Origin: Bacteroidales bacterium
Lineage (GTDB): Bacteria > Bacteroidota > Bacteroidia > Bacteroidales > Muribaculaceae
Direction of reading: 5' to 3'
NCBI GenBank assembly: GCA_030524805.1
Contig: JAUNFY010000005.1
Coordinates: 1 to 64,000, forward strand
DNA: 64,000 bases
Shown here: piece after piece, positions 16,732 to 31,523 of the stretch
How positions within the stretch are numbered: the stretch's first letter is position 1
Layout: the number at the start of each line of letters is the position of its first letter
Notes under the pieces: generated by a model
What the model was told of the DNA's origin: nothing
What the model saw: the letters and a program-made list of their open reading frames with translations, nothing else
Databases searched by the model: none
Translations under genes and position numbers: made by a program

Positions 16732-17976
16732 ATGGCAAAAGTAAAACCTTTCAAAGGCGTGCGCCCTCCCAAAGACCTCGTGGAGCAGGTGGCATCGCGC
16801 CCTTACGACGTGCTCAACTCCGAAGAAGCCCGCAAGGAGGCTGAAGGCAATGAGAAATCGCTCTATCATATCATAAAGCCGGAGATAGACTTCGAGCCCG
16901 GTTTTGACGAGCATGACCCGGCGGTGTATGGCAAAGCGGTGGAAAACTACCGCAAGTTCCGCGACATGGGCTGGCTGGTGAAAGACGACGAGGAGAAATA
17001 CTACATCTATGCCCAGACAATGGACGGCCGCACGCAGTATGGCTTCGTGGTGGCTGCATGGGTGGACGACTACATGAATGGCCGCATCAAGAAGCATGAG
17101 CTCACCCGCCGCGACAAGGAGGAAGACCGCATGAAGCACGTGCGTTGCAACAACGCCAACATCGAGCCCGTATTCTTCGCATTCCCCGACAACGATGCCC
17201 TGCAGCAGATTATCGACGAAGTCACTGCCGGCGAGCCGGAATACGACTTCGTGGCACCCGACGGCTTCGGCCACACTTTCTGGGTGATCGACAATCCGGA
17301 CATGATAGCCCGCGTGACAGAGGAATTCGATAGAATACCGAACCTCTACATCGCCGACGGCCATCACCGCAGCGCGGCTGCCGCGCTCGTGGGCAATGAG
17401 AAAGCGAAAAACAATCCCGACCACAAAGGCGACGAGGAATACAACTACTTCATGGCTGTGGCATTCCCCGCATCGCATCTGCGCATCATCGACTACAACC
17501 GAGTGGTGAAAGACCTCAACGGACTGAGCGAGGAGGAATTCCTCGACCGCCTGCGCCTGAACTTCGAGGTAGAGGAGAAAGGCGTGGAAACCTATCATCC
17601 GGCGCGCCTTCACAACTTCGCGCTCTATCTCGGCGGCAAATGGTATTCGCTGACCGCCAAGCCGGGCACCTACGACGACAGCGACCCCATCGGGGTGCTT
17701 GACGTGACTGTATCGTCCGACCTTATCCTGCGCGACATTCTCGGCATCACCGACCTGCGCAGCGACAAACGCATCGACTTCGTGGGCGGCATCCGTGGCC
17801 TTGAGGAGCTGAAGCAGCGCGTAGACAGCGGCGAGATGAAGATGGCGCTGGCGCTCTATCCGGTGACGATGCAGCAACTGATCGATATAGCCGACAGCGG
17901 CAACATCATGCCCCCGAAAACCACCTGGTTTGAGCCCAAACTCCGCTCCGGCCTCGTCATCCACGACCTCGACTAA
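16732..17976 (+). CDS. DUF1015-family protein
   Basis: A 414-residue cytosolic protein matching DUF1015 throughout: the N-terminal AKVKPFKGVRPPKDLVEQVASRPYDV, NEKSLYHIIKPEID, GFVVAAWVDDY, and the conserved histidine block NLYIADGHHRSAAAAL near residue 205. The C-terminal LDVTVSSDLILRDILGI and RIDFVGGIRGLEEL are also typical. The family is widespread and often found near serine-biosynthesis genes, but its biochemical role is not established to my knowledge. There is no serA or serC here. It follows the Fur-family gene by 46 bp and may be co-transcribed with it. Confidence 0.88.
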   Translation: MAKVKPFKGVRPPKDLVEQVASRPYDVLNSEEARKEAEGNEKSLYHIIKPEIDFEPGFDEHDPAVYGKAVENYRKFRDMGWLVKDDEEKYYIYAQTMDGRTQYGFVVAAWVDDYMNGRIKKHELTRRDKEEDRMKHVRCNNANIEPVFFAFPDNDALQQIIDEVTAGEPEYDFVAPDGFGHTFWVIDNPDMIARVTEEFDRIPNLYIADGHHRSAAAALVGNEKAKNNPDHKGDEEYNYFMAVAFPASHLRIIDYNRVVKDLNGLSEEEFLDRLRLNFEVEEKGVETYHPARLHNFALYLGGKWYSLTAKPGTYDDSDPIGVLDVTVSSDLILRDILGITDLRSDKRIDFVGGIRGLEELKQRVDSGEMKMALALYPVTMQQLIDIADSGNIMPPKTTWFEPKLRSGLVIHDLD

Positions 17977-18274: not shown

Positions 18275-21200
18275 ATGAGACTTGCTTTATTTCCGCTGTT
18301 ATCATTAGCCTTCTTGTCTGTATCCGCCCAGACCTTGCAGCAGGGTGTGGTGAAGGAATACAATGAGAAAGCCCAGAAAACTCCGCTTGCCGGGGTTGAA
18401 CTCAAAGTGCGCTCCGCAAGCAGCACGGTTTCCGACAACCACGGCGATTTTTCGCTCAATTTCCTTACGCTGAAGCCCGGCGACAAGATCAACGTGCGCA
18501 ACATTGAGAAAATGGGCTATGAAATATTCAATAAGGAAGCCGTGGAGCAATGGATTCTCAGCCCTACGGTGCCTTTTGTCATAGTGATGTGCCGTGTCGA
18601 GAAGTTCAAGGCTATAAGGGATAATTTTGAAAAGAACGCGTCGAAGAACTATAAAAGTCAGTATGACAAGGAGCTCGCGATGCTTGAGAAGCTTAAGGCC
18701 GACGGAAAGATCAAGGAGGAAGAATATCGGCGTAAACTTGCCGAAGCGCAGGAAACGTTTGATGCGCAGATGGACAACCTCGACAACTACATCGACAGGT
18801 TTGCAAGGATCGACCTTTCGGAACTCTCCGAGACCGAACAGGAGATTTTCGAGCTGCTTCAGGCAGGAAATTTCGATGAGGCTATCAGGAAATACGAGGA
18901 GCAGAATCTGACCGACAAGTATCTTGAGGGTCTCAGCCGCAAAGAAGCGCTCACCACTTCGATTGCGAAACTGTCGGAGCTGGAAGCCACCACCTCGGAT
19001 GCAAATGCCCGGCTGCTTGAATCAATCTCACGCCAGATAGAGACACTTATGTTGTCTGGCACCAAGGCCAACAACGATAAGGCATTGGATCTATATCTGA
19101 GGATAGCGGAAACCGACACACTTAATATAGACTGGCAGTTGCGCACCGGAAAGCATCTGATGAAATATCAGGGTAATCCGTCGGGAGCGCTCCCATATCT
19201 TGACAGGGCTCTCCAAATTGCTGAACGGAACGGCGACGACACCAGGCTCCTTGCCGTCTGCTACGGAAATATGGGCAACGCCTATCTCATGCTCGCCAGA
19301 CATGATGAAGCGGAAAGATGCTACACGAAGGCGCTGGATATAAGGGTGAGTGCTTTTGGAGAGGATGATGGCGACGTGTCGCTGTCGTATCATAGTCTCG
19401 GAAACCTCTATGAAAACAAAGGTGCCTACGACAAAGCGCTTGAATATTACGACAAATCAAGGGCTATAAGCGAGATGGTGTGGGGACCGGAGAGCGCGGA
19501 GGTCGCATCTGACTACAACAATATCGGCAACATACATGCCAGAAAGAATGATTACGCCAAAGCCCTCGACTATTATTCCCGGGCGCTTACCATACGCGAG
19601 AAACTGACTGATATCAGTTATTACGACATCGAATCGACATACAATAACATAGGTTACGCCTACTCGAAAATGGCGCAATATGACAAGGCTCTCGACAACT
19701 TCGACAAGGCCCTGAAGCTTTGCCAACAATTGTATGGCGAGGAGCATATCTCCACTGCTGCCGTGCTTGAGAACATAGCCGGAGTGTATCGTGATTTCGA
19801 CAAGTTTGATCTGGCTGAAGAATATGGCGGAAAGGCTTTGGAGGTAAGGAAAAGATACTTGGGCGGGAATCATCCTTCAGTGGCAGAATCACTCAACAAT
19901 TTAGGAAGATTGAAGAGTGCGTCGGGCAATTTCAGCGGGGCTCTTGAATATTATGAAGAAGCGTTGAGGATACAGAAGAGCATATATGGCGACAATCATA
20001 TTGCGGTTGCCAATTCCTACAGCAATATCGGACATATATATTCAAGTATTGCCAGATATGACGAGGCTCTCGAGAGTTTTGGGAAAGCGCTTTCGATTGC
20101 GAAGCAGACTGTAGGCGAGAAACATTCACTGGTTTCCTCTATCTACAACAATATCGGTTCGTTGTATCTCAACACCGGTAATCTTGACGAGGCTCTTTCA
20201 ATGTTGCAGAAATCAACGGCGATACTGGAAGAGATACTTGGGGAGGAGCATCCTGATGTGGCTGTGACTTATGGCAATATAGCTGCAATATTCGACAAGA
20301 AAGGGGAATACGACAAAGCGATAGAGTTTTATCAGAGAGAAATTGATGTATGCAAAGCCATTTATGGGGAGGAGCATGGTACGGTAGCAACCGCCTACGG
20401 CAACATGGGAGTGAGCTACGGCAATATGGGCAATCTTTCCAAAGCTTTGGATTATATGGAAAAGTCGCTTGACATAAGAGTGAAACTTTTTGGAGAAGAT
20501 GGTGACGGAGTGGCGCTGGCTAAATCTAATATCGGTCATTTTCTTCATGAGGCCGGTTATCAGGAAAAGGCATTGGAATACCTGAATGAAGCCGCTGCTT
20601 CATTTGAACGGACAGTGGGCACAGAACATCCTTTGCTTGCAAACGCATTTGAAAAAATCGGTATGGTATATTCTGCTACCGGCCGGCTTGACGTGGCTTC
20701 GGAATATTATAATAAAGCTTTGCGGATAAGGGAAAAAGTGCTTGATCCCAAACATACTGATCTGGCCATTTCCTACAACAATATCGGGGCGATATGTTAT
20801 CAGAGGAATGATTTCGACAATGCTATAGAATATTATCAGAAAGGAGTGAAAATCTATTCTGATAAATTGGGAATGGATCATCCTACGGTTGCCGGTATGT
20901 ATGGTAATATAGGCTTCGCTTATCTCGGGAAGCAAGACCTGAATCTGGCGCATGAGTATTTTGGCAAGGAATTGGGTATCGAGGAAAAACGTTATGGTGC
21001 TGATAGTGATAAAGTTGCATTGGTTAATGCCGGAATAGGAAAAATGATGATTGATAAATCGTATTTCAGCGATGCGATACCATATATGGAGAAAGCCGTT
21101 GCAGTCTTTGAGAAAACAAGGGTTGCTCTGAGTGAATCGATGATGCTGATGCTTTATTTGTGCAATTTCAATTCTGTTGGGAAAGGGGAAAGGAACGTTG

Positions 21201-21535
21201 CGGAGTTTGAAGACTTTATGGCCGACAAGGCATTTGTTGTCTCCGTAGTGGATGGAGGCCCTGCTTCTGAAAAAGGGCTGTCAGGTGACTATTATTTGCT
21301 GGAAATGGGCGACTGGAATTGTGCCAAGGCGCTCACAATGAATATGAATGATGAAAGTTCGAGATTGACAGGAAAAGCGAAGGATATCGTGATAATGAAA
21401 GATGGCATCGTGTCGCGACATCATTTTGAGGACAAGATGGGAGTGCAGTATATTTTAAGAAAAGTGCCGGCAGAAGCAAAGGCGGAGGTTGAGGCAGCCT
21501 ACGCCGGATGGAAAGCGAACGGGGCTGAGTTGTGA
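18275..21535 (+). CDS. Secreted TPR-array protein with PDZ-like C terminus (first gene of the candidate conflict system)
   Basis: A 1086-residue protein. The ATG at 18275 gives a proper signal peptide (MRLALFPLLSLAFLSVSAQ). A short carboxypeptidase-regulatory-like beta domain follows (TPLAGVELKVRSASSTVSDNHGDFSLN), then a helical/coiled-coil part (residues about 110-300). Residues about 310-950 hold some 16 consecutive TPRs of the kinesin-light-chain type, each almost exactly 42 residues, with the pattern YxNIGxxY...YDKALEYYxKAL. Near residues 985-1045, FVVSVVDGGPASEKGLSGDYYLLEMGD resembles a PDZ domain. It probably scaffolds or senses partners in the periplasm. The next gene begins 23 bp downstream, so it heads the cluster. 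The ligand is unknown. Confidence 0.8.
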   Translation: MRLALFPLLSLAFLSVSAQTLQQGVVKEYNEKAQKTPLAGVELKVRSASSTVSDNHGDFSLNFLTLKPGDKINVRNIEKMGYEIFNKEAVEQWILSPTVPFVIVMCRVEKFKAIRDNFEKNASKNYKSQYDKELAMLEKLKADGKIKEEEYRRKLAEAQETFDAQMDNLDNYIDRFARIDLSELSETEQEIFELLQAGNFDEAIRKYEEQNLTDKYLEGLSRKEALTTSIAKLSELEATTSDANARLLESISRQIETLMLSGTKANNDKALDLYLRIAETDTLNIDWQLRTGKHLMKYQGNPSGALPYLDRALQIAERNGDDTRLLAVCYGNMGNAYLMLARHDEAERCYTKALDIRVSAFGEDDGDVSLSYHSLGNLYENKGAYDKALEYYDKSRAISEMVWGPESAEVASDYNNIGNIHARKNDYAKALDYYSRALTIREKLTDISYYDIESTYNNIGYAYSKMAQYDKALDNFDKALKLCQQLYGEEHISTAAVLENIAGVYRDFDKFDLAEEYGGKALEVRKRYLGGNHPSVAESLNNLGRLKSASGNFSGALEYYEEALRIQKSIYGDNHIAVANSYSNIGHIYSSIARYDEALESFGKALSIAKQTVGEKHSLVSSIYNNIGSLYLNTGNLDEALSMLQKSTAILEEILGEEHPDVAVTYGNIAAIFDKKGEYDKAIEFYQREIDVCKAIYGEEHGTVATAYGNMGVSYGNMGNLSKALDYMEKSLDIRVKLFGEDGDGVALAKSNIGHFLHEAGYQEKALEYLNEAAASFERTVGTEHPLLANAFEKIGMVYSATGRLDVASEYYNKALRIREKVLDPKHTDLAISYNNIGAICYQRNDFDNAIEYYQKGVKIYSDKLGMDHPTVAGMYGNIGFAYLGKQDLNLAHEYFGKELGIEEKRYGADSDKVALVNAGIGKMMIDKSYFSDAIPYMEKAVAVFEKTRVALSESMMLMLYLCNFNSVGKGERNVAEFEDFMADKAFVVSVVDGGPASEKGLSGDYYLLEMGDWNCAKALTMNMNDESSRLTGKAKDIVIMKDGIVSRHHFEDKMGVQYILRKVPAEAKAEVEAAYAGWKANGAEL

Positions 21536-21558
21536 ATCTATTTTAATAGGATTTGAAT

Positions 21559-23817
21559 ATGACAGGAAGCGAACGCGAAAGCCGCGAGACATCGAGGAAA
21601 CGGAATCACTCATGGTGGAAAGGATTACCTTTGACCACTGACTATCTTATGTCGGGTAATTTCCTGAGCCTTTTCTTCTTCGTGTTTTTAGCCACAACCA
21701 TACTCTTTTTCATGCTTTGGGGAATCACGGCATATTTCAGCAACTGGAATCCCGGCGAGGCATTCCTTCAACTGACAAACCCAACGCGCCATCTTGATCC
21801 GCCCTATGTGGATCCGGGCGCTCAGGAATGGGTGGCGATAGTGTGCATGAACCTGTTCGGACTCTTTTTCATCAACGGCATAGTGCTTACTATTTTTGTC
21901 AATTGGGTGTCGAACCGCAAGGAACGGCATCTGCGTGGAGAGGCACGTTATCCTTATATTCAGAAGAAGAGGTTTTCGGTGATAATAGGAGGGCACAAGA
22001 TGGCAGCCGGTCTGGCCCATTCGCTTATAAGGAAAAAAGATATCGAGTATGTACTGATCCAGACGCAGCGTAATCCCGAAGCCCTGCGCAAGGAGATAAT
22101 GGCGGAAATCAATGATGAGAAGCTGGCGAAGAATGTGGTGATATATTCCGGCGACCGCACCTCATGGCATGAACTTGCGGAGCTCCGGCTCGACAAGGCT
22201 TGTGAAGTGTATCTGATAGGCGAGCCATTCCATATTGACGGCTCAAGCCATGATGCAATCAACATGCAATGCTGGAATGAGATAACCGGTCATCTCAAGG
22301 AGGAGAGAGCGGTAAGGATTCCCTTCCATGTGATGTTTGAATATCAGTCTACGTTCAGCGCCTTTCAGTTTACCGACATGAAGCTTGAGCAGAGCAGGAT
22401 GTTCCGTTTCATTCCCTTCAGCATGTATGAAACGTGGGCGCAGCATGTGTTGATCGGCAACGGAAATGAGTCGGAGCGGGAATATATCCCTTTGGATGGA
22501 ACCGAAGGAATAGACCGCACATCATGCCAGCGGGTGCATCTCATAGTGATCGGCATGTCGAAAATGGGAATGGCCATGGCTATCGAGGCCGCACATATAG
22601 CCCACTATCCCAATTTCAATAATGAAGCTACCGGAAGGCCGCGCACTCTCATCACGATGATCGACAGAAACGCGAAGCGGGAGATGCTCTACTTCATGGG
22701 GCGTTCACGCCAGCTGTTTCAGCTTGCGCGCTGGCGGTTTGTGAAGGCTCCTGACGGAACTGTGTGTCCTTCCGACGGCAGCTGGAATATCTACGACACC
22801 ATTGAGCAGACCGCAAGCCGCACAAACAAGACGTATCCCTGGCACGACCCTCTTGCCGACCGGGAATACGGGTCGCCATATTTCGGTGGACACCTTGGAG
22901 AAAACCTTATCGACATAGACTTTGAATTTATAGAAGGAGACGTGGCTTTGCCATCCATACAGAAATATATCAGCGATGCGTGTGCCGACAATTCCGCGAG
23001 AATCCGGAGTTTTGATGACGGGGGAGAGGGCCGGATGCGCGATGCTTCGAGCAAGACCACTATTGCCGTATGTCTCCCGGTAGCGGCCGACGCCATGTCG
23101 GCGGCATTGTATTTCGCGCCTGAAGTCTATGAGGATGTGCAGCAGATACTCGTGCAGCAACCGGAATCGGGCGCGTTGGTTAAGGCAATCCGGCATGGAC
23201 TGACCGGAGAGTCTACATCGCTGTTCGGAAAACTCCGGGCTTTCGGCATGACTGATAGATGCGATTATCTCTCGCGCATCAACAGCATTCTTCCGAAGCT
23301 CGTGGCTTACGCCTACAACTTTTGTTCCAAAGAAACGTTGGCCGAAGATTTCCGGAAATCGGGCTGCATGGCGGCCTTCGTGGAAAAAGTGGAGAAAAAC
23401 TGGCTTGCGATATCTCACGACGGTGGCAAAAGCGCGATTTCAAAGAGATGGTCGAATTTATATTGCGCCAATTCCTTCGACACCAAGATACGCTCCATGC
23501 GCATCGACATATCCCGGGGCGGAGAACTGGACGATGCGGAAGTGGTAGGTGAACTCGCCAAGATGGAACACAACCGCTGGGTGATGGAGCAGTTGCTGCT
23601 CGGCGCCAGACCCGTAGACAGCAAATATGCCCGGCACATACCGATAGAAGACGATGATATCCGGAATAAATTGAAGAGCCGGAACATACACCCCGACCTG
23701 ATATCGAACGAAAAACTTGGATCGACCAAAAAGTACGACGAGGGAATAGCCCGCAACATCCCCCTGCTCCTCTCCCTCGCCTCCGAAATAGAGAAATCCA
23801 ACAATCATCAAACATGA
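21559..23817 (+). CDS. Two-TM channel-like protein with RCK-like Rossmann domains and RyR-like domain
   Basis: A 752-residue membrane protein. Two hydrophobic helices (about residues 33-60 and 90-118) flank a 30-residue loop, a TM-loop-TM layout like ion channels, though no TVGYG filter is present. Two Rossmann/TrkA-N-like domains follow: FSVIIGGHKMAAGLAHSLI (about 139) and VHLIVIGMSKMGMAMA (about 327). The C terminus (about 660-745) matches the RyR domain pattern: LAKMEHNRWVMEQLLLGARP, then NIHPDLISNEKL, then KKYDEGIARNIPLLLSLA. The ATG at 21559 follows AGGA, and an upstream in-frame TTG at 21553 is less likely. I infer a gated effector or sensor in which the RyR and RCK domains bind a nucleotide-type signal. 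It lies 13 bp before the SIR2-TIR gene. Confidence 0.75.
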   Translation: MTGSERESRETSRKRNHSWWKGLPLTTDYLMSGNFLSLFFFVFLATTILFFMLWGITAYFSNWNPGEAFLQLTNPTRHLDPPYVDPGAQEWVAIVCMNLFGLFFINGIVLTIFVNWVSNRKERHLRGEARYPYIQKKRFSVIIGGHKMAAGLAHSLIRKKDIEYVLIQTQRNPEALRKEIMAEINDEKLAKNVVIYSGDRTSWHELAELRLDKACEVYLIGEPFHIDGSSHDAINMQCWNEITGHLKEERAVRIPFHVMFEYQSTFSAFQFTDMKLEQSRMFRFIPFSMYETWAQHVLIGNGNESEREYIPLDGTEGIDRTSCQRVHLIVIGMSKMGMAMAIEAAHIAHYPNFNNEATGRPRTLITMIDRNAKREMLYFMGRSRQLFQLARWRFVKAPDGTVCPSDGSWNIYDTIEQTASRTNKTYPWHDPLADREYGSPYFGGHLGENLIDIDFEFIEGDVALPSIQKYISDACADNSARIRSFDDGGEGRMRDASSKTTIAVCLPVAADAMSAALYFAPEVYEDVQQILVQQPESGALVKAIRHGLTGESTSLFGKLRAFGMTDRCDYLSRINSILPKLVAYAYNFCSKETLAEDFRKSGCMAAFVEKVEKNWLAISHDGGKSAISKRWSNLYCANSFDTKIRSMRIDISRGGELDDAEVVGELAKMEHNRWVMEQLLLGARPVDSKYARHIPIEDDDIRNKLKSRNIHPDLISNEKLGSTKKYDEGIARNIPLLLSLASEIEKSNNHQT

Positions 23818-23830
23818 AATAAATTGAACC

Positions 23831-25201
23831 ATGATGGATGCAATCAACAGCCGATATAAGAAAATTGTGGAGAATCTCATCGAGATGAAGGATGTGGTCG
23901 TGCCAATATTGGGCGATGACATATTCTATGTGATGAAAGAAGGGGAAAGAAAGATGTCGATACATGAATATCTTCTTGAATCTTTTGTGGAGGAATATGG
24001 CGAGAATGGCATGACGAAAGAAGACAAGGCTGTTGTCACGAACGGTTTTTATTATGGATTGTCGAAACTAGAGCGATTTTTTCCGGATGATTTCGAGACA
24101 GACTACCGGTGCTATATCCGCAAAGCCAATAAGCAGGGATGGATAAGGATGGAAGACACGATAAAGGAATTTCTTGAAGCGTTCAGGTTTCCACTTCTTA
24201 TCACGACATCTCCATTCAATTTTATCAGGGAGCAACTGACCACACAGAATTATGTGTCTTACGCCTATAGTCCGAAAAGTTCAAATACTGAAAGGCTTGA
24301 GAATCAGCAGCCATTGATATATCATATTTTCGGCACAGTTGCAGATGGAGCTGAGTGGGTGTTCGATGAAGATAAACTTCTTGAATTCCTGCACAGCCTC
24401 CACAATGAAGATACGACTTCGAAAGGCCTGAGGCAGTATATGGAGTCAAAAAACTGCCGTTTGCTTGCGATAGGATGTAATCTGCCCGATTGGCTGTTTC
24501 GCTTTTTATGGTATCCCATCAAAAGCGGATCTGGAAACGGGAGGCAGAAAAAGGGGTATTGGATAAATTCAAGGGAAATAACAGAGAGTTTCAATGATTT
24601 TCTCGACAATATTAATTTTTACACAGCAAGTGAAGTCAAAGACATTCTGTCGACTGCAGTTGCATTGATAAAGGATATTGAACAAGAAGAGGAGACAATG
24701 GCTCTTACAGAAGGGGAAGTTTGCTATGACGGATTCCTGTCGTACGCATCGGAAGACTATCTGATAGCTAAGAAACTGTTTAATCAACTTACCGACAAGG
24801 GATACAAGATATGGTTTGACAAGAAAGGTTATGCCAAACTTGAAGCAGGCGATAAATACATGAGAAAAATCAAGGCCGGATTAGCGGTTTCCAAATACTA
24901 TATACCGCTGATAACCGGCAAATTCCTTAAGAAGATCCGTGATTCGAGTAGCAATCTTTCGCAGGAACTTGATCTGGCAAAGGAGCATTATGCATCTTTC
25001 GCAAATCCTCCTGAGAGGTATTCTGTTCCGGTATTGGTGGAGGGTAGCATCTATAAAGATGAAAATTTAACTAGCACTCCGGTCACAAGCGCACTGGTGG
25101 AAGGCTGGGCTAAATTCGAAATACTGCCCCGCCCATTTTTCTGGCAGATTAACATGTATTCATATTCGACAGAAGACACATCCATAGACTTTACATTATA
25201 G
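23831..25201 (+). CDS. SIR2-like (degenerate) / TIR fusion protein
   Basis: A 456-residue protein. Residues 1-270 follow the SIR2-like order, but with key residues changed: VVPILGDDIFYV in place of the GAGxS loop, LLITTSPFNFI in place of TxNxD, IYHIFGTV in place of the catalytic HG, and LLAIGCNLPDWLFRFL matching the GxSLxD segment. Residues about 297-440 form a TIR domain: YDGFLSYASEDYLIAKKLF, KGYKIWFDKKGYAKLEAGD, SKYYIPLITGKFL and NLSQELDLAKEHY, whose Glu fits the NAD-hydrolysing glutamate. TIR and SIR2 domains in bacterial defence cleave NAD+ or make or sense nucleotide signals. The next gene begins 4 bp later, indicating one transcript. I infer the TIR is the active part. Confidence 0.8.
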   Translation: MMDAINSRYKKIVENLIEMKDVVVPILGDDIFYVMKEGERKMSIHEYLLESFVEEYGENGMTKEDKAVVTNGFYYGLSKLERFFPDDFETDYRCYIRKANKQGWIRMEDTIKEFLEAFRFPLLITTSPFNFIREQLTTQNYVSYAYSPKSSNTERLENQQPLIYHIFGTVADGAEWVFDEDKLLEFLHSLHNEDTTSKGLRQYMESKNCRLLAIGCNLPDWLFRFLWYPIKSGSGNGRQKKGYWINSREITESFNDFLDNINFYTASEVKDILSTAVALIKDIEQEEETMALTEGEVCYDGFLSYASEDYLIAKKLFNQLTDKGYKIWFDKKGYAKLEAGDKYMRKIKAGLAVSKYYIPLITGKFLKKIRDSSSNLSQELDLAKEHYASFANPPERYSVPVLVEGSIYKDENLTSTPVTSALVEGWAKFEILPRPFFWQINMYSYSTEDTSIDFTL

Positions 25202-25205
25202 CGAT

Positions 25206-28200
25206 ATGAGGGATAAACAACATAATCCATACATAGGACTCCGAACCTACGAAGAGGCTGATTCCGCTTTTTTTCGCGGACGCAGGAAGGGGGTTGCCGA
25301 CTTGTTTCATTTGATTGCGGAAAATGACGTTGTGGTGCTTCATGCCGAATCGGGCGAGGGTAAAAGCTCGCTGCTCAATGCAGGGCTTGTGCCAATGCTG
25401 CGCGACAAACGATATTTTCCCATTCACATCAGTTTTATTGAGGATGATTTCTCTAAAGATAATCCTGACTTCAATGAGATTGTGTATGAGCGGATCAAGA
25501 ACGCTGTTGATATAGCGAATGATATGTCGGCAAATGGGGATATGTTTGAGAGTGGTGCGTCCGCGGATGGAAAGATATCGTTTCGCCCATTAAAGATTGC
25601 AGGATGCGATGTAGACTCATTCCGCAGTTTGCGTGGAAATATCTGGTGGCTTTTGCGTCATTATGTCTTGACTGTATATGGAGTTGAGCTTATCCCCGTT
25701 TTAATTTTCGATCAGTTTGAAGAGGTATTCAGCAAGCCAAAGGATATCTCATGGACAGAAGACTTTTTCTGTTGGCTTTCATCTGTGTTGAGCGATGAGG
25801 TACCGCAGGAAGTGGTTGCGCAGGTCAGGGAAGCCATAGGGGAAGAAAAGGTTTTCCCAAATTTATCTACGCAAAAGCATTACAAGGCATTGTTTTCGCT
25901 TCGTACGGAATATATGGGAGAACTGGATTATTGGGCTATCCAGCGCCATCATGTAATGGTGATGAAGAATTCCAGATATTGCCTTAAACCGCTTACCGAG
26001 GATGAGGCCGATGAGGTGCTATCTCTTCAACCGGCCTTCACGCCGATGATATGTAATGAGATCAAATCGGCCATCAGTACATACAGACGTGCGGACCACA
26101 GGAAGCGGCTTCCGGTAATACCGGCAATGTTGTTGTCTGTAGTGAGCACTACGGCATCTGAGAATATCCGGCGTGGCGATGAGGCATTCGTGCAAATGTC
26201 CGGAATGTCGGATGAGGCTGCTTCAAGAGATGTGTTCAACAGCGTCATCACGCAATTCTATAGCAAAGAGATAGCGGAAGCCTCAATTCCTGACAAGGAT
26301 TTAGCAGCTATAGAGAATATTCTTGTAGACGACAAGGGTAAGAGAGTCAGAATAAAGGCTGAATGCAAAGCCCTGAGAAAAATGAAATTCGAGCAGAAAT
26401 ATAAGGATTTGCTCGAAGAGAAGCGCTTGATAAAATCAAGCCTGATCAACGGGGATGAGTATGTCGAATTGACTCATGATGCTTTGGCAAGGGTGATAAT
26501 TGGTAGGCGTGAGAAGAGATCCATCAGCAATATCAATCTCAAAACCACAATCATACAGGCAGTCTTGATCATGATGGCTGCCCTGTTGGGCTTGGCATGG
26601 TCTAAGATTATAATAGGTTGGGGGTCTGAATATGCATTCATGTTGGATTTTAAGGAACGAGGTTTTGGCCGTCAATTGCTGAATTTTGCTATATTTTCAG
26701 GTCTGCTCTACGCTACTTCGTCTATGACAAGACGGTTGGGAACTTCGATGCGACTTGTGGTGTGGGGAATGGTGTATCTGGTCATGTATTCCATCTTTCT
26801 TGCAAAGCGCGGCATGCTTGATCCGCTGTATCTGGATTATAAGCTGTTGTTGTCGGTAGCCGTTACATGTCCGTTTTTTGCAGTGGGCGCATATCTTACC
26901 GGACGTGGATGGAAATGGAAGTGTATAGGATATGCAATTTGCGCATTGCTTCTGTTTCCCGTGATTTTGTCCTGTACGTCGATAGTGGCATTAAGCCTGG
27001 AGATGTTTGCGGTGTTTGCTCTCGGGGGGTATGCGCTGAAGAGGGAGGGGAATATGCCGGTAGTGTCATTGGTAGCGATATCCTTCATCATTATTTCTCA
27101 TTTTCTTTATCATTATAGTTCCGGATTTGTTTTTGTATCATTGGCCGTAATCATCGGTTTGTTCATTATTCTTGGAATATGGGGCTTTTCATGGGAGAAG
27201 AAATTATCCGGCAGTAAATGTTTCGATGAAATATTCAGTTTCCGCCAGTTTTCCACCAATAAGTTTATCAATACTCTTTTCAATATTTTTGCAGTATGTA
27301 TTGTGGTTTTCATTTCGATTTCAATCGGAATGACGCTTGATGGAAAGCTATCGTTATTGTCGTCTTTGCCCATCGCGCTGGCTCTTATATATTTCTATTG
27401 GCGATTTGGACGAAAAGGGGTGGGAGCATATCGTATGGGAATCACCGTTACGGTTATATTGTCGGTCTTTCTTATCTGTATATCTCAATTTTTTGTGTTT
27501 CATACGGTCTTCACCATAGTAGTCTGGATTCTTTCCGCGTCCGTGATATTGTTCATTGCCTGCAGGAATAGAAAGCTGAAAAACTCGTCGGAATTCTTCT
27601 GCATGAAACCTTTATCGCTTGCAAGTATGTGGCTTTTAGCAGTGGTAGGTTTGCCATTTGTTCTCATGGGGCATAATCTGTTGATTGGCGACGGGACTTA
27701 CCGAGTATGGAATGGTACACTTAGAGCCAACCCATACGTGAAGTTGATGTATGTGAAAGACGGAGATGGGTTAGTAGGAGTGAGCGACAGATGGGGAAAA
27801 ATGGTGATACCTGCCAAGTATATTTCAATCTATAAGACCCCTGATAATTTAAGAGAAGCTGAGTTCATAATGTACGATGGCGATATCCTATCATCGTGGA
27901 ATCCTATTTATCATATTACGGAAAGAAATGCATTTACAGACAATATCATAGCCAGGGTCAACGAGTATATGAACATATCAGAACCATTGTTGCAAGGTAT
28001 GTCGGTACGCGGATATCCCGAAGAAAAAATCAATTTACATGCGGAGAAAGCATTGATAGAAATGCTTACTGATGTATACAATTATGAAGTGGCCGGAAGC
28101 GCAGATAAAAGGATCAATGAGTTTGATTTCGGTGATGAGCGGCTTTTGACTTCTTTGGCAGCTGTGCCGTATGACAAACTTGATTTATCGCTGCTTGCAT

Positions 28201-29516
28201 ACACATCTGAAGGATTTCAAGCAATGGTGATGCGGCAGATAGTGCCAAATATGCAGATATATCCTTTCGGAAAGGTTTCGGATGTATTGCAGAAAGATTT
28301 TGAAAGGTCACAATATCGGCTCACGTGCACCATTTGTAATGGTAGTGGCGAACAGATTCTGAAGGATAAGATGATTGCTGAGAAATGCAGCGCATGCGAA
28401 GGCCGGGGCACAAAGGAAGCTGACGTGACGCCGGAAGAAATAAAGAAGCACTACAACGTTTCTCAAGATGCGGATGTTGATGTCCTTAAATCTTACGTCA
28501 TAGGAGATTTGTATAGATGGTTGGGAGGCATATACCTTGAACTGAAAGATTATCGCACATCGGGAGAATACACTTCAAAAGCCATGGCTGAATCTTTTTC
28601 AGAGCCTGCCAGCGTAGACAATCTGATTGCTGATTATCTTACCGCTCCTGACCGAAACGCTCAGAAGTCAATAGAAAAGCGACTTCAGAACAGTCAGATG
28701 GAATTGATAAGAATTAATTCCGGCTTCATGGATTATCCTGATCCCAATCTTGAAGGAGCATGGAAATTTTTGCGCTACAATCATCTAATCGACATATTGG
28801 GGGCAAGAATACAAAGTCTGCAGGGAAAGATCAGTAGTCAGGACATCAGCAAACTTGAAGGACTTGTAGAGGCAATAATACCCCATTCAAGCTATTCATT
28901 GGCTGAATTCCGTCGACAAATACCATATTCTGATATTCAGAAGATACCGCAGCCAGATGGAGAACCTTTATATAGATATAAAGGGACAATTCCGTCGTTT
29001 CAAATCTCAAGATTGGGAAATGTCGGGATTTCTCCGTCTGCCAGATCATATTCATTCTATGTAAAGGATGGAGAACCCGTCACTCCGGTGTTGACTTTCT
29101 TTTCAGTAAGTAAAACGGATGAATCGGCTCCGGTGCTTGCGGTTGATTACCTTTCGAAGAAAAAATATTTTTTCGAAGGGGTGTGGCCGACATCTTTGTT
29201 GGATGCCGGGCAGCCGCGGAAGATAGCAGGCGGATTTGATCATGCCTGGTGTTTTCAAGATGGTCTGGCGGCTGTTGAAGTCAACGGTAGAATCGGTTTT
29301 ATAGATTATGACGGCAAATGGGTGATTGAACCGCGATTTAAGAGTCCGTTTTCAGTTTCAAGTGAATTACAGCATCGTTTCATGGGTTTGTATAGTTCAA
29401 AAAAATATAAAGAACCGCTTTTCAATGATGGTGTGTGCCCGGTATATGACGACAATCTTCAACTCAGATATATCGACAGGACAGGGGACTATGTCAAAAC
29501 TGATTTTGAAAAGTAA
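25206..29516 (+). CDS. nSTAND1-type ATPase with large membrane block, CxxCxGxG motifs and WG-type repeats
   Basis: A 1436-residue protein. It opens with the nSTAND1 signature NPYIGLRTYEEADSAFFRGR, Walker A in HAESGEGKSSLLNAGL (about residue 47) and Walker B in PVLIFDQFEEVF (about 165). A helical region follows, ending in VELTHDALARVI (about 420). Residues about 440-828 contain roughly a dozen hydrophobic helices. The C-terminal 600 residues contain a WG-like repeat (KDGDGLVGVSDRWGKMVIPAKY, about 850), two CxxCxGxG motifs (CTICNGSG about 1039, CSACEGRG about 1061) as in the DnaJ zinc centre, and a clear WG repeat (NGRIGFIDYDGKWVIEPRF, about 1360). STAND ATPases are signal-activated switches in immunity. 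It is AT-rich relative to flanking genes. I infer it is the central transducer, placed in the membrane. Confidence 0.8.
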   Translation: MRDKQHNPYIGLRTYEEADSAFFRGRRKGVADLFHLIAENDVVVLHAESGEGKSSLLNAGLVPMLRDKRYFPIHISFIEDDFSKDNPDFNEIVYERIKNAVDIANDMSANGDMFESGASADGKISFRPLKIAGCDVDSFRSLRGNIWWLLRHYVLTVYGVELIPVLIFDQFEEVFSKPKDISWTEDFFCWLSSVLSDEVPQEVVAQVREAIGEEKVFPNLSTQKHYKALFSLRTEYMGELDYWAIQRHHVMVMKNSRYCLKPLTEDEADEVLSLQPAFTPMICNEIKSAISTYRRADHRKRLPVIPAMLLSVVSTTASENIRRGDEAFVQMSGMSDEAASRDVFNSVITQFYSKEIAEASIPDKDLAAIENILVDDKGKRVRIKAECKALRKMKFEQKYKDLLEEKRLIKSSLINGDEYVELTHDALARVIIGRREKRSISNINLKTTIIQAVLIMMAALLGLAWSKIIIGWGSEYAFMLDFKERGFGRQLLNFAIFSGLLYATSSMTRRLGTSMRLVVWGMVYLVMYSIFLAKRGMLDPLYLDYKLLLSVAVTCPFFAVGAYLTGRGWKWKCIGYAICALLLFPVILSCTSIVALSLEMFAVFALGGYALKREGNMPVVSLVAISFIIISHFLYHYSSGFVFVSLAVIIGLFIILGIWGFSWEKKLSGSKCFDEIFSFRQFSTNKFINTLFNIFAVCIVVFISISIGMTLDGKLSLLSSLPIALALIYFYWRFGRKGVGAYRMGITVTVILSVFLICISQFFVFHTVFTIVVWILSASVILFIACRNRKLKNSSEFFCMKPLSLASMWLLAVVGLPFVLMGHNLLIGDGTYRVWNGTLRANPYVKLMYVKDGDGLVGVSDRWGKMVIPAKYISIYKTPDNLREAEFIMYDGDILSSWNPIYHITERNAFTDNIIARVNEYMNISEPLLQGMSVRGYPEEKINLHAEKALIEMLTDVYNYEVAGSADKRINEFDFGDERLLTSLAAVPYDKLDLSLLAYTSEGFQAMVMRQIVPNMQIYPFGKVSDVLQKDFERSQYRLTCTICNGSGEQILKDKMIAEKCSACEGRGTKEADVTPEEIKKHYNVSQDADVDVLKSYVIGDLYRWLGGIYLELKDYRTSGEYTSKAMAESFSEPASVDNLIADYLTAPDRNAQKSIEKRLQNSQMELIRINSGFMDYPDPNLEGAWKFLRYNHLIDILGARIQSLQGKISSQDISKLEGLVEAIIPHSSYSLAEFRRQIPYSDIQKIPQPDGEPLYRYKGTIPSFQISRLGNVGISPSARSYSFYVKDGEPVTPVLTFFSVSKTDESAPVLAVDYLSKKKYFFEGVWPTSLLDAGQPRKIAGGFDHAWCFQDGLAAVEVNGRIGFIDYDGKWVIEPRFKSPFSVSSELQHRFMGLYSSKKYKEPLFNDGVCPVYDDNLQLRYIDRTGDYVKTDFEK

Positions 29517-29545
29517 GATTGGAAACAAACGTAAAAGGAATAAAG

Positions 29546-29842
29546 ATGAAGAAGAAGGAAGAATATCGGCCTAAGCCGGCCGACACGAGAGAGGTGAGGC
29601 TGCCTGAAGAACTCGAGGTGCTTGCCGAGGAGATGGCTCGGAACGTACATGAGGTGTGGTCCCTTAACCGCCTTAAAGAAGGATGGACCTATGGCCCGGA
29701 GCGCGACGACGTGGCCAAGACCCACCCCTGCCTTGTAGATTACGATGATCTGCCTGAAAGTGAGAAAACATACGACAGGGCTACATCGCAGGAAACATTG
29801 AAATTTATTTTGCTCAAAGGTTTTGAGATTTCAAGAAAATGA
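29546..29842 (+). CDS. Free-standing RyR-domain protein
   Basis: A 98-residue protein that is almost entirely one RyR (ryanodine-receptor-type repeat) domain: LPEELEVLAEEMARNVHEVW, then LKEGWTYGPERDD, then KTHPCLVDYDDLPESEKTYDRA, then QETLKFILLKGFEI. These match the family's GWxYG, HPxLVPYxxLPExEKxxDR and LKxLLxxGY blocks closely. The ATG at 29546 has a good AAGGAAT ribosome site. A TTG at 29519 in the same frame is not needed. In prokaryotes RyR domains occur in predicted nucleotide- or ligand-responsive conflict systems, and this one may be a diffusible partner of the RyR-like domain in the channel-like protein. Its last codons and stop belong to a 19 bp sequence repeated at the end of the protease gene. 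Confidence 0.88.
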   Translation: MKKKEEYRPKPADTREVRLPEELEVLAEEMARNVHEVWSLNRLKEGWTYGPERDDVAKTHPCLVDYDDLPESEKTYDRATSQETLKFILLKGFEISRK

Positions 29843-29852
29843 TGTAAATTTG
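29822..29852 (+). promoter_or_regulatory. Internal promoter before the protease gene
   Basis: TTTG (29822-29825), a 19 bp spacer and TAAATTTG (29845-29852) match the consensus well. They overlap the stop of the RyR gene. Transcription would start near 29857, leaving a leader of about 80 nt. Confidence 0.65.
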
Positions 29853-29935
29853 TGAAATCTTGCAATTGCCGCATTGTTTATGTTGTGTCGGCTTGCTTTT
29901 TGCCATAATACAATATTAATTCTAAAATCGTAGTC

Positions 29936-31036
29936 ATGAGAAGAAATATCTTTGCAACATTCCGTTTGTCGTTGAAGATGGGATTGTTGGTTTTGTCTTT
30001 AGTCCTGATTGTTTCGTGCGGTCATAAGGATGAGAAAGAAATCGAGAGTCAGCAGGCATCGGGCGTGGTGCTTGTGAAAAATACGAGCTACTATGAGGTG
30101 GCGTTACCCAATGGCGAATCTCTATATTTTAGTTCCTACGATGAGGAAGATGGCATACGCGGTCTGTCATTCGAGGCTGACTCGGTTGAAGTTTCCAGAT
30201 CATACGGAACAGGTTTTTTTGTGGGAAATGATGGCACGATTGCCACTAACGCCCACGTGATATCATCGACAATAGATGATGCGGAGATCAAAAAGTCTGT
30301 GAAAAAGATTTTCGATGCTCTTAAGATTGTGTTAGAACTTGAATACGACAGTAAAGTCGAGCGTCTTGGAGAAATCCAGCAGGCCTACGATTTTGCCAAC
30401 ATCAGTCCGGATGTCAGTTATACAGATTTCTACACTATCAGAGATATGCGCGACAATGCGGTTTCGGAACTTGAGGAGATGCAGAGCACTTATAAGGCTC
30501 TCGACCGGATTTCTGTCTCTGATACAGAGATAAAATATCACAACGAGGTGAGTATAGCCTATAATGACACCCACGTGACTAAGGATTCCGATTTCATAGA
30601 ATGTGTGGTTCGTGGTAGGGATCAGGATCATGACCTCGCATTGCTTCAGTTGAAAGACAAGAAGACACCGGAAGGAAAATATGTGTTTGTGGTGGCTGAA
30701 GATGATCCTTTCGAGACATATTCCATCACTGACAGAATCGTGGGTAAAATCAATGGTGATAAAAACGAGAAACTTTTCGTGCATGGTTTCAACCTGGGTC
30801 CGCAGCTTGCTGTAACAGAAGAGGGTCTTAAAGCACAATTCACAAGCGGGTCTGTAAGTCAGCAGACTTCAGACCGGCTGATGTATTCAATACCGACGCT
30901 TCCGGGCAGCAGCGGGTCGCCGGTGGTTAATCGTGAAGGAGAATTGATAGCAATCAACTATGCCGGCATTGGGGGCACTCAGAATTTCAACTATGGAGTG
31001 AGGGTGAAGCATCTGCGATCGCTTATGAGAAAATGA
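29936..31036 (+). CDS. Lipoprotein trypsin-like serine protease with long insertion
   Basis: A 366-residue protein. The N terminus is a lipoprotein signal with lipobox LVLIVSCGH (Cys about residue 29), so it is anchored in the envelope. The trypsin-fold triad is visible: His in GTIATNAHVISS (about 105), Asp in DHDLALLQL (about 233) and Ser in LPGSSGSPVVN (about 326). Between His and Asp lies an insertion of roughly 80-100 residues, helical and charged (KSVKKIFDALKIVLELEYDS and SELEEMQSTYKALDRIS), likely a coiled coil that protrudes from the fold and could act as sensor or regulator. No PDZ domain follows, unlike DegP/HtrA. It sits in the cluster after the RyR gene and has its own promoter. 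Confidence 0.85.
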   Translation: MRRNIFATFRLSLKMGLLVLSLVLIVSCGHKDEKEIESQQASGVVLVKNTSYYEVALPNGESLYFSSYDEEDGIRGLSFEADSVEVSRSYGTGFFVGNDGTIATNAHVISSTIDDAEIKKSVKKIFDALKIVLELEYDSKVERLGEIQQAYDFANISPDVSYTDFYTIRDMRDNAVSELEEMQSTYKALDRISVSDTEIKYHNEVSIAYNDTHVTKDSDFIECVVRGRDQDHDLALLQLKDKKTPEGKYVFVVAEDDPFETYSITDRIVGKINGDKNEKLFVHGFNLGPQLAVTEEGLKAQFTSGSVSQQTSDRLMYSIPTLPGSSGSPVVNREGELIAINYAGIGGTQNFNYGVRVKHLRSLMRK

Positions 31037-31038
31037 TG

Positions 31039-31046
31039 TAAATTTG
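31039..31046 (+). promoter_or_regulatory. Candidate -7 box before the last cluster gene
   Basis: TAAATTTG lies just after the protease stop codon and 34 bp before the ATG at 31080. No TTTG is found 19-20 bp upstream. It is part of a 19-mer shared with 29834-29852. Confidence 0.45.
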
Positions 31047-31079
31047 GGGCAAGTGTATTTTAACATTCGGAAGTCGGAT

Positions 31080-31523
31080 ATGGAAACAAATATGGAGGCT
31101 CGATGCCTGGAGAAGGAGAAGGAATTGCTGGGGAAATATTTTGGAAATCTTGCGGATGAGGCTGCGCAGTGCCGGCAGGATATCGGTTGCTATACTCCGG
31201 ATCTGCCGCTGAAGATCGCGGCTGAGTTCCATAGTTGTCTGGAAGAGTTTTGGCGGGAATATTCCGATGAGCCGTTGATTCTGGAAGAGCGGGAGCTTTT
31301 GAAGCACATGACGGAAGACGACCGCGAAGCGATTGGCGGAGCTTACGCCGATGCCGAAACGGTCACCTTGTGGGAGAGGATCACGGGCTCCAACCATGAG
31401 GACGTGGCATACTACAAGGGCTTGCTTCACGAATATACCAAAGATCTCCTCATGGTGATGCGTCATGATTTCCTGGAGGAAATCACCGGAAAGCACATCA
31501 ACTGCAAAGCATTTGAAGACTGA
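31080..31523 (+). CDS. Small acidic helical protein of unknown function
   Basis: A 147-residue product with no signal peptide or membrane segment. It is predicted to be alpha-helical, with acidic heptad-like stretches (CLEKEKELLGKYFGNLADEA, LEERELLKHMTEDDREAIGG, ETVTLWERITGSN). It contains four cysteines. I do not recognise the family. The ATG at 31080 is chosen over the alternative TTG at 31044, and Met4 (31089) is another possible start. It follows the protease gene closely on the same strand and ends the cluster; the next gene is convergent. A regulatory or immunity role in the cluster would be a guess. Confidence 0.6.
   Translation: METNMEARCLEKEKELLGKYFGNLADEAAQCRQDIGCYTPDLPLKIAAEFHSCLEEFWREYSDEPLILEERELLKHMTEDDREAIGGAYADAETVTLWERITGSNHEDVAYYKGLLHEYTKDLLMVMRHDFLEEITGKHINCKAFED

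Follow-up and report, generated by a model that had tools for sequence, protein, structure and literature searches.

Gene content and organization of the locus

Between positions 18275 and 31523, the window (i.e. the whole 64,000-nucleotide stretch of Bacteroidales DNA analysed here, contig JAUNFY010000005.1) carries a tightly packed run of seven genes (g1-g7), all of them recovered as open reading frames on the + strand, which we consider to encode a candidate alarm system where a TIR-domain protein (g3) may signal to an ion channel-like protein (g2). An initial annotation of this DNA, made from its letters alone, had described seven same-strand genes with only 4-23 bp between the first four, and the measured intergenic gaps bear this out: 17 bp (23 bp from the ATG of g2), 13 bp and 4 bp from g1 to g4, followed by 29 bp (g4-g5), 93 bp (g5-g6) and 43 bp (g6-g7). 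The genes, together with the domain and residues discussed below, are:

18275..21535, + strand: g1, TPR-array protein of 1086 amino acids (aa), TPR_12 E 3.5e-144, with an N-terminal hydrophobic signal-like segment
21553..23817, + strand: g2, two-transmembrane, tandem-RCK channel-like protein (754 aa from TTG) with a C-terminal RyR domain
21778..21786, + strand: N76-P77-T78 of g2, presumed selectivity-filter stretch, placed by alignments (loop with a predicted local distance difference test score, pLDDT, <50 in the model)
23515..23814, + strand: RyR domain of g2, residues 655-754, pocket residues H673, W676, H713 and D729
23831..25201, + strand: g3, SIR2-TIR protein of 456 aa (Pfam: TIR_2 E 1.6e-11, SIR2_2 E 2e-10)
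24329..24331, + strand: F167 codon of g3, at the place of catalytic H146 of the SIR2 NADase KomC, by alignment with the latter
24965..24967, + strand: E379 codon of g3, putative catalytic Glu of the TIR domain (aligned Glu in 66/66 TIR domains)
25206..29516, + strand: g4, nSTAND1 ATPase of 1436 aa (nSTAND1 E 6.2e-22) with membrane segments and C-terminal WG repeats
29546..29842, + strand: g5, small stand-alone RyR protein (PF02026 E 5.3e-35)
29936..31036, + strand: g6, trypsin-like serine protease and lipoprotein (Trypsin_2 E 1.6e-19; by eye, a lipobox and H/D/S motifs)
31080..31523, + strand: g7, 147 aa, member of a widespread family without a Pfam domain

The g2 frame opens with a TTG at 21553 (an in-frame ATG is found at 21559), that of g5 with an ATG at 29546 (a TTG also occurs at 29519), and g7 has an earlier TTG at 31044, most of its homologues among the matches listed being 144-154 aa long. 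The TPR, SIR2, TIR, nSTAND1 and RyR domains named in the initial annotation were recovered as Pfam matches in g1, g3, g4 and g5.

A RyR pocket on a channel-like protein

No Pfam family scored above its cut-off in g2, and its pore and tandem RCK domains were assigned by profile and fold comparisons, the model matching the RCK gating rings of DMI1/CASTOR, GsuK, KtrA and BK. A hydropathy scan delineated segments 37-55 and 94-112, together with a further one (504-522) inside the RCK part. These lines of evidence give the pore, the tandem RCK domains and the C-terminal RyR of the two-transmembrane RCK-RyR protein originally proposed, and g2 thus has the layout of an RCK-gated tetrameric cation channel such as BK, CASTOR or MthK (two pore helices, then two RCK domains), with a pore loop modelled at low confidence. 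Its C-terminus aligned to the RyR profile with hhalign at 96.1% (E 3.5e-9; control profile 0.1%), the fold matches listed for the full-length model did not include RyR, and PF02026 is precomputed for the g2 homologues P0006, P0035 and P0118. In g5 the same family is reached with 120 bits (curated cut-off 27.4).

RyR domains of phages bind or cleave 2'/3'-cyclic ADP-ribose (cADPR), and cADPR-type signals are cleaved or bound by RyR proteins that phages carry; in the phage protein RyDEP the ligand residues are H75, W78, H100 and D117, and the tested homologues other than RyDEP did not cleave the signals, 6/8 of them binding these (PMC13232231, a 2026 preprint). All four residues are matched both in g2 (H673, W676, H713 and D729, numbered from 21553) and in g5 (H34, W37, H59 and D76, numbered on a 97-aa query starting at 29549). 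In RyDEP residue order, they are kept in 84, 88, 83 and 82 of 89 distinct channels (obtained from 105 hits of a hidden Markov model (HMM), 95 of them >=600 aa), in 120, 120, 118 and 120 of the 120 homologues listed (350 in total), and in 54, 54, 51 and 54 of 54 small RyR proteins. The initial suggestion that TIR-made nucleotides act on RyR domains is strengthened by RyDEP (PMC13232231) and by this conservation, and is retained here as a prediction.

Among further RyR proteins, the C39-like/RyR fusions found in channel loci keep the His, Trp and Asp in 18/18 cases and the second His in 4/18, the RyDEP H100 position being occupied by Thr in 12/18 and by Asn in 2/18; as the replaced residue is the phosphate-binding His, the ligand of these fusions is perhaps a changed one. 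Relatives of g5 were found in 160 phage records (phages of Salmonella (60), Pseudomonas (35) and Arthrobacter (23) being the most numerous) and likely belong to the RyDEP family. Proteins of ~900 aa with two tandem RyR matches occur in genomes of another Bacteroidota family that is rich in TIR genes (genus g78, e.g. G329:C7:51454-51936).

The presumed selectivity filter

The potassium filter TVGYG was found in 0/89 channels, and on account of this absence the reading as a potassium channel was rejected. A strict D-[PST]-G-N occurs in the pore loop of 49/89 channels and resembles the filter A-D-S/A-G-N-H-A of CASTOR, a Ca2+-selective plant channel (PMC6697748); the L034 channel is one relative with D-P-G-N. 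The filter stretch of the window g2 reads T-N-P-T, and N-P-x is found at this place in 56/62 of its close homologues; the alignment is ambiguous here, N76 standing at the D of the motif in one alignment and at its N in others, and an unrelated D-P-G occurs further along the protein. A divalent-permeable pore is therefore a fair guess for many of the relatives and is not assigned to the window g2, whose filter stretch has neither D-P-G-N nor the acidic CASTOR-type motif and for which Ca2+ selectivity is not claimed. The alarm proposed below does not depend on these filter counts.

The SIR2-TIR, nSTAND and TPR proteins

The solved TIR structures nearest to the TIR half of g3 are 7uxr, 7uwg and 8g83 (named NAD(+) hydrolase AbTIR), AbTIR being a maker of a cADPR isomer, and ThsB models match g3 with E 1.2e-7. 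The putative catalytic E379 is aligned with a Glu in every one of the 66 TIR domains from channel loci (72 HMM hits, with duplicates and short ones excluded). The SIR2 half, on the other hand, is predicted to be inactive, because a Phe (F167, invariant in 5/5 cases) stands where KomC has its catalytic His (H146), and an active SIR2 NADase in g3 is thus not supported.

The Walker A and B motifs of g4 (G50, G52, K53 and S55; D169-Q-F-E-E) are invariant in 5/5 cases, the C-termini differing strongly, as expected of a sensor. Hydropathy scans gave about nine distinct segments in g4 and a single N-terminal one in g1 as well as in g6. TPR proteins related to the N-terminal region of g1 were found at L058 (E 3e-31; an upstream ATG at 2343 opens, by eye, a signal-peptide-like stretch), L098 (on the opposite strand), L121 and, weakly, L119. 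The inclusion of a secreted TPR protein in the system, as first annotated, is consequently backed by four other channel loci only, one of them weakly, and we treat g1 as a putative envelope sensor or scaffold. A further TPR relative of g1 (38% over the repeats) is encoded at L049 (6294-15105), close to a gene for an MscS-type channel and to a protein whose end is RyR-like.

Genomic linkage of RyR, channel and TIR genes

The survey of the window's family comprised 149 genomes (30 genera), of which 44 contained TIR_2 and 31 RyR, with TIR_2 being present in 27 of the 31 RyR genomes (Fisher p 3.4e-14). Along contigs, 25/43 RyR hits lay within 10 kb of TIR_2 (expected 0.95 under random placement in 2.5-Mb genomes). 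Relatives of g2 were present in 17/149 genomes and 11/30 genera, and their 20 places (31 rows minus 11 further pieces of the same proteins) lay within 10 kb of RyR in 11 cases and of TIR_2 in 9. Phylum-wide (296 genomes), TIR_2 was found in 19/22 RyR genomes versus 126 overall (p 1.5e-5), 15 of these 22 belonging to one genus.

Named channel loci were taken from a scan of species genomes (best 80 of 84 stretches), nearly all of them from Bacteroidota and mostly from metagenome-assembled genomes; one Akkermansia and one Rickettsiales record fall outside this range. A second RyR gene is placed within two genes of the channel in 55/80 loci, and a small RyR gene is adjacent, on the same strand, to 35/89 channels (gaps -17 to 177 bp). 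SIR2-TIR, nSTAND, channel and RyR genes share one run in the window and at L034 (on the same contig as L059), L045 (with a fusion of RyR and a g7-like part), L058 and L112; at L058 the run comprises TPR, SIR2-TIR, nSTAND, channel and small RyR. The TIR partner proteins of channel loci include TIR-Sel1, TIR-FGE, kinase-TIR and TIR-RHS, and other scanned partners (e.g. MutS, gyrase A, glycosidases and glycosyltransferases) look unrelated. The core genes hence recur together in some genomes, RyR clusters with TIR, and neither Pfam nor NCBIfam assigned g2 to a housekeeping family, so that the refuting conditions set in the initial annotation (genes not kept together, or proteins of housekeeping families) did not overturn the core.

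Variant arrangements were observed as well. At L043 (8770-13404), the gene directly after those for the channel and the small RyR protein encodes a DUF4062-AAA-TPR protein, as a TIR-like partner replacing TIR; DUF4062 is reported to be a TIR-like antiphage NADase (PMC13174449). At L073 (18666-21798), where the channel has a C39-like/RyR neighbour, SIR2 and nSTAND hits 4 bp apart are located ~6.6 kb downstream of the channel, and a parallel cluster at L033 (9718-16898) encodes a small RyR protein, a TIR protein, a shorter RCK-RyR-like protein (384 aa), a trypsin-domain protein, a TPR-CHAT protein and two proteins of 206 aa and 208 aa, the latter with a hydrophobic N-terminus.

At the site of the cluster, the gene at 16732 (which we take, from its sequence, to be DUF1015-like) is directly followed by the counterpart of the gene at 40154 in 3 of 16 same-genus stretches (taken from 38 further genomes in which the flank gene occurs), the two being non-adjacent in the remaining 13. 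Because the flanks adjoin in these three relatives, ~22 kb that include the cluster (17977-40153) are extra in the window. Carriage of g2 on plasmids is not supported (no match at E 1e-5 among 72,556 plasmid records), and the candidate for phage carriage is a single unverified faecal scaffold, with a channel fragment adjoining a small RyR gene, which looks bacterial since genes for TonB-plug, FecR and sigma-70 are also aboard.

A putative TIR-to-ion-channel alarm

The domain content, the tight gene run, the RyR pocket, the TIR Glu, the nSTAND motifs and the linkage between RyR, channel and TIR are established at the level of sequence. Building on them, we lean, by a little more than an even chance, towards a cluster that works as a TIR-to-ion-channel alarm. 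In such a system, the nSTAND ATPase g4 would sense a trigger (the secreted g1 possibly feeding an envelope cue to this membrane protein) and switch on g3, whose TIR domain would make a cADPR isomer, its SIR2 half serving presumably as an inactive NAD-binding or assembly module. The isomer would bind the RyR domain of g2 and open the pore, and the ensuing ion flow may arrest or kill the infected cell, an alarm against viruses being the likely role of the cluster. The small RyR protein g5 could act as a brake that binds (as a sponge) or hydrolyses the signal, setting its threshold or ending it. The system initially annotated is supported in part: its core was not refuted, and the protease (g6) and g7 do not belong to what could be supported.

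Several observations weigh against this interpretation. The C-terminus of g2 does not reach the Pfam cut-off of PF02026 and, folded alone, gives a poor model (predicted template modelling score, pTM, 0.35) with no PDB match. The T-N-P-T stretch of the window g2 has no D-P-G-N, and in CASTOR the change D265N results in no current (PMC6697748). Relatives of g2 were not found in the 8 other same-genus genomes of the family survey, 4/31 RyR genomes had no TIR_2 hit, and the RyR-TIR statistics ignore shared ancestry. By HMM, TIR was found in just 31/80 named channel loci and shows no peak near the channel within the 10-kb flanks (19/389 nearer vs 13/297 farther genes, p 0.45; 39/80 loci with both flanks); for want of such a peak, a two-component system of strictly adjacent TIR and channel genes was rejected. 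Moreover, PADLOC-DB models (compared singly, without a system caller) match the cluster proteins one by one, no two of them clearly belonging to one system: TPR and three weak models hit g1, a single weak 'Effector' model (E 0.0046) hits g2, TIR models hit g3 and protease-type models g6, with no match for g4, g5 and g7. NCBIfam adds TPR, TIR and protease-type matches and otherwise weak ones only.

Alternatively, the TIR domain alone could be an nSTAND-activated NADase toxin (as in abortive infection), with the RyR channel and the small RyR protein being housekeeping sensors of ADP-ribose or ATP that register NAD loss and limit the damage. Many TIR and STAND proteins act directly as NADase effectors, and 49/80 channel loci yielded no TIR by HMM. 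The absence of signal cleavage by the tested RyDEP homologues, 6/8 of which bound the signals (PMC13232231), also fits such sensors. We regard this explanation as unlikely, given the patchy occurrence of the channel (17/149 genomes) and the fact that RyR genes track TIR both across genomes and along contigs, which a general sensor would not need to do. A signalling or stress system without a role in phage defence (e.g. envelope stress or kin recognition through the secreted TPR, the lipoprotein protease and the membrane nSTAND, with the channel as output) also appears improbable to us: it would account for the secreted TPR and lipoprotein protease within the same gene run, for the related TPR proteins at L058, L098, L121 and (weakly) L119, and for other channel loci with a C39-like/RyR protein and a 190-aa gene, or with M48 or PrsW proteases, but the patchy distribution, the ~22 kb missing from the site in 3/16 relatives and the links to TIR, nSTAND and (at L043) DUF4062, reported to be a TIR-like antiphage NADase (PMC13174449), favour conflict. 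That the run is a chance assembly of unrelated defence-island genes, in which cooperation is confined to some neighbours, we hold to be very improbable; the SIR2-TIR and nSTAND pair shares a run with the channel at five distinct loci only (window included), TIR has no adjacency peak and g6 and g7 are not kept, but the 4-29 bp gaps from g1 to g5, the small RyR gene adjoining 35/89 channels and the single run at L058 (TPR with a signal-peptide-like start, SIR2-TIR, nSTAND, channel and small RyR) argue against it.

Going beyond the alarm itself, we tentatively put forward, as a possibility to which we give somewhat less than an even chance, a prokaryotic cADPR-gated channel pathway, in which the TIR product, read by the RyR domain on a CASTOR/BK-like RCK channel, would open the pore (in D-P-G-N members, to divalent cations) and the signal would be ended by the small RyR protein. 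This would be the equivalent, in bacteria, of the action of cADPR on ryanodine receptors, with phage RyDEP proteins as captured copies of the off-switch.

Relation to known systems

We place the cluster as a new form of TIR-nucleotide signalling. As in Thoeris, a TIR domain with a putative catalytic Glu (TIR_2 and E379 in g3) is predicted to produce a signal of the cADPR type, by which a partner effector would be activated. Thoeris effectors bear a SLOG (ThsA) or another Thoeris sensor domain, whereas the putative effector here is an RCK channel with a RyR sensor, which is not known as a Thoeris effector; Pfam matched neither a SLOG nor a macro domain in any of the seven proteins, SIR2 being fused to TIR instead, and the cluster further involves an nSTAND ATPase. 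The R12/RyR domain with its four ligand residues is common to RyDEP, g5 and the C-terminus of g2, but RyDEP serves phages in counter-defence, and the domain found here belongs to the host, where it lies beside TIR and forms the end of a channel protein. CASTOR/POLLUX/DMI1 of plants and BK (Slo1) of animals likewise have a pair of pore helices and, after it, a pair of RCK domains; the bacterial protein differs in adding a C-terminal RyR domain and in having no TVGYG, and the clade of the window in its N-P-x. Animal ryanodine receptors are also ion channels with RyR (R12) domains linked to cADPR, but they have another pore and size, and the RyR domain of the bacterial protein is carried by an RCK ring. 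Bacterial STAND systems of the NLR-like kind similarly combine an nSTAND ATPase with a variable C-terminus that is likely the sensor, the difference being that g4 would work through a separate TIR protein and a channel.

In the literature searched (judged from titles and abstract openings of the papers listed, with subscription papers mostly out of reach), no system combining RyR, RCK/TrkA and TIR was described, and none features in the passages that term searches brought up in PMC9503650, PMC8195603, PMC7824862 and PMC7016017. Were the proposed pathway true, an old question of animal biology, that of cADPR as a signal, would become testable in a simple cell, and there would be a reason for phages to carry RyR proteins.

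The protease and g7

The lipoprotein protease had been counted as a part of the system, but a phmmer search (E 0.01) of 1469 proteins encoded in the window and 98 loci gave no match to g6, and g7, the last gene of the run first described, belongs to a widespread, non-specific family (1668 relatives); neither is supported as core. The C-terminal part of the g7 family can replace or accompany RyR in fusions. A channel, a 190-aa protein and a C39-like/RyR protein are found together at L042 (8859-12910), L044 (7560-11257) and L039 (4447-8715), and since the C39-like protein of L039 ends in a g7-family part, at the place where its RyR end would be, RyR and g7 swap places. At L045 (17764-18648), a protein of 290-294 aa, in which a g7-like part is joined to RyR, adjoins the SIR2-TIR and nSTAND genes.

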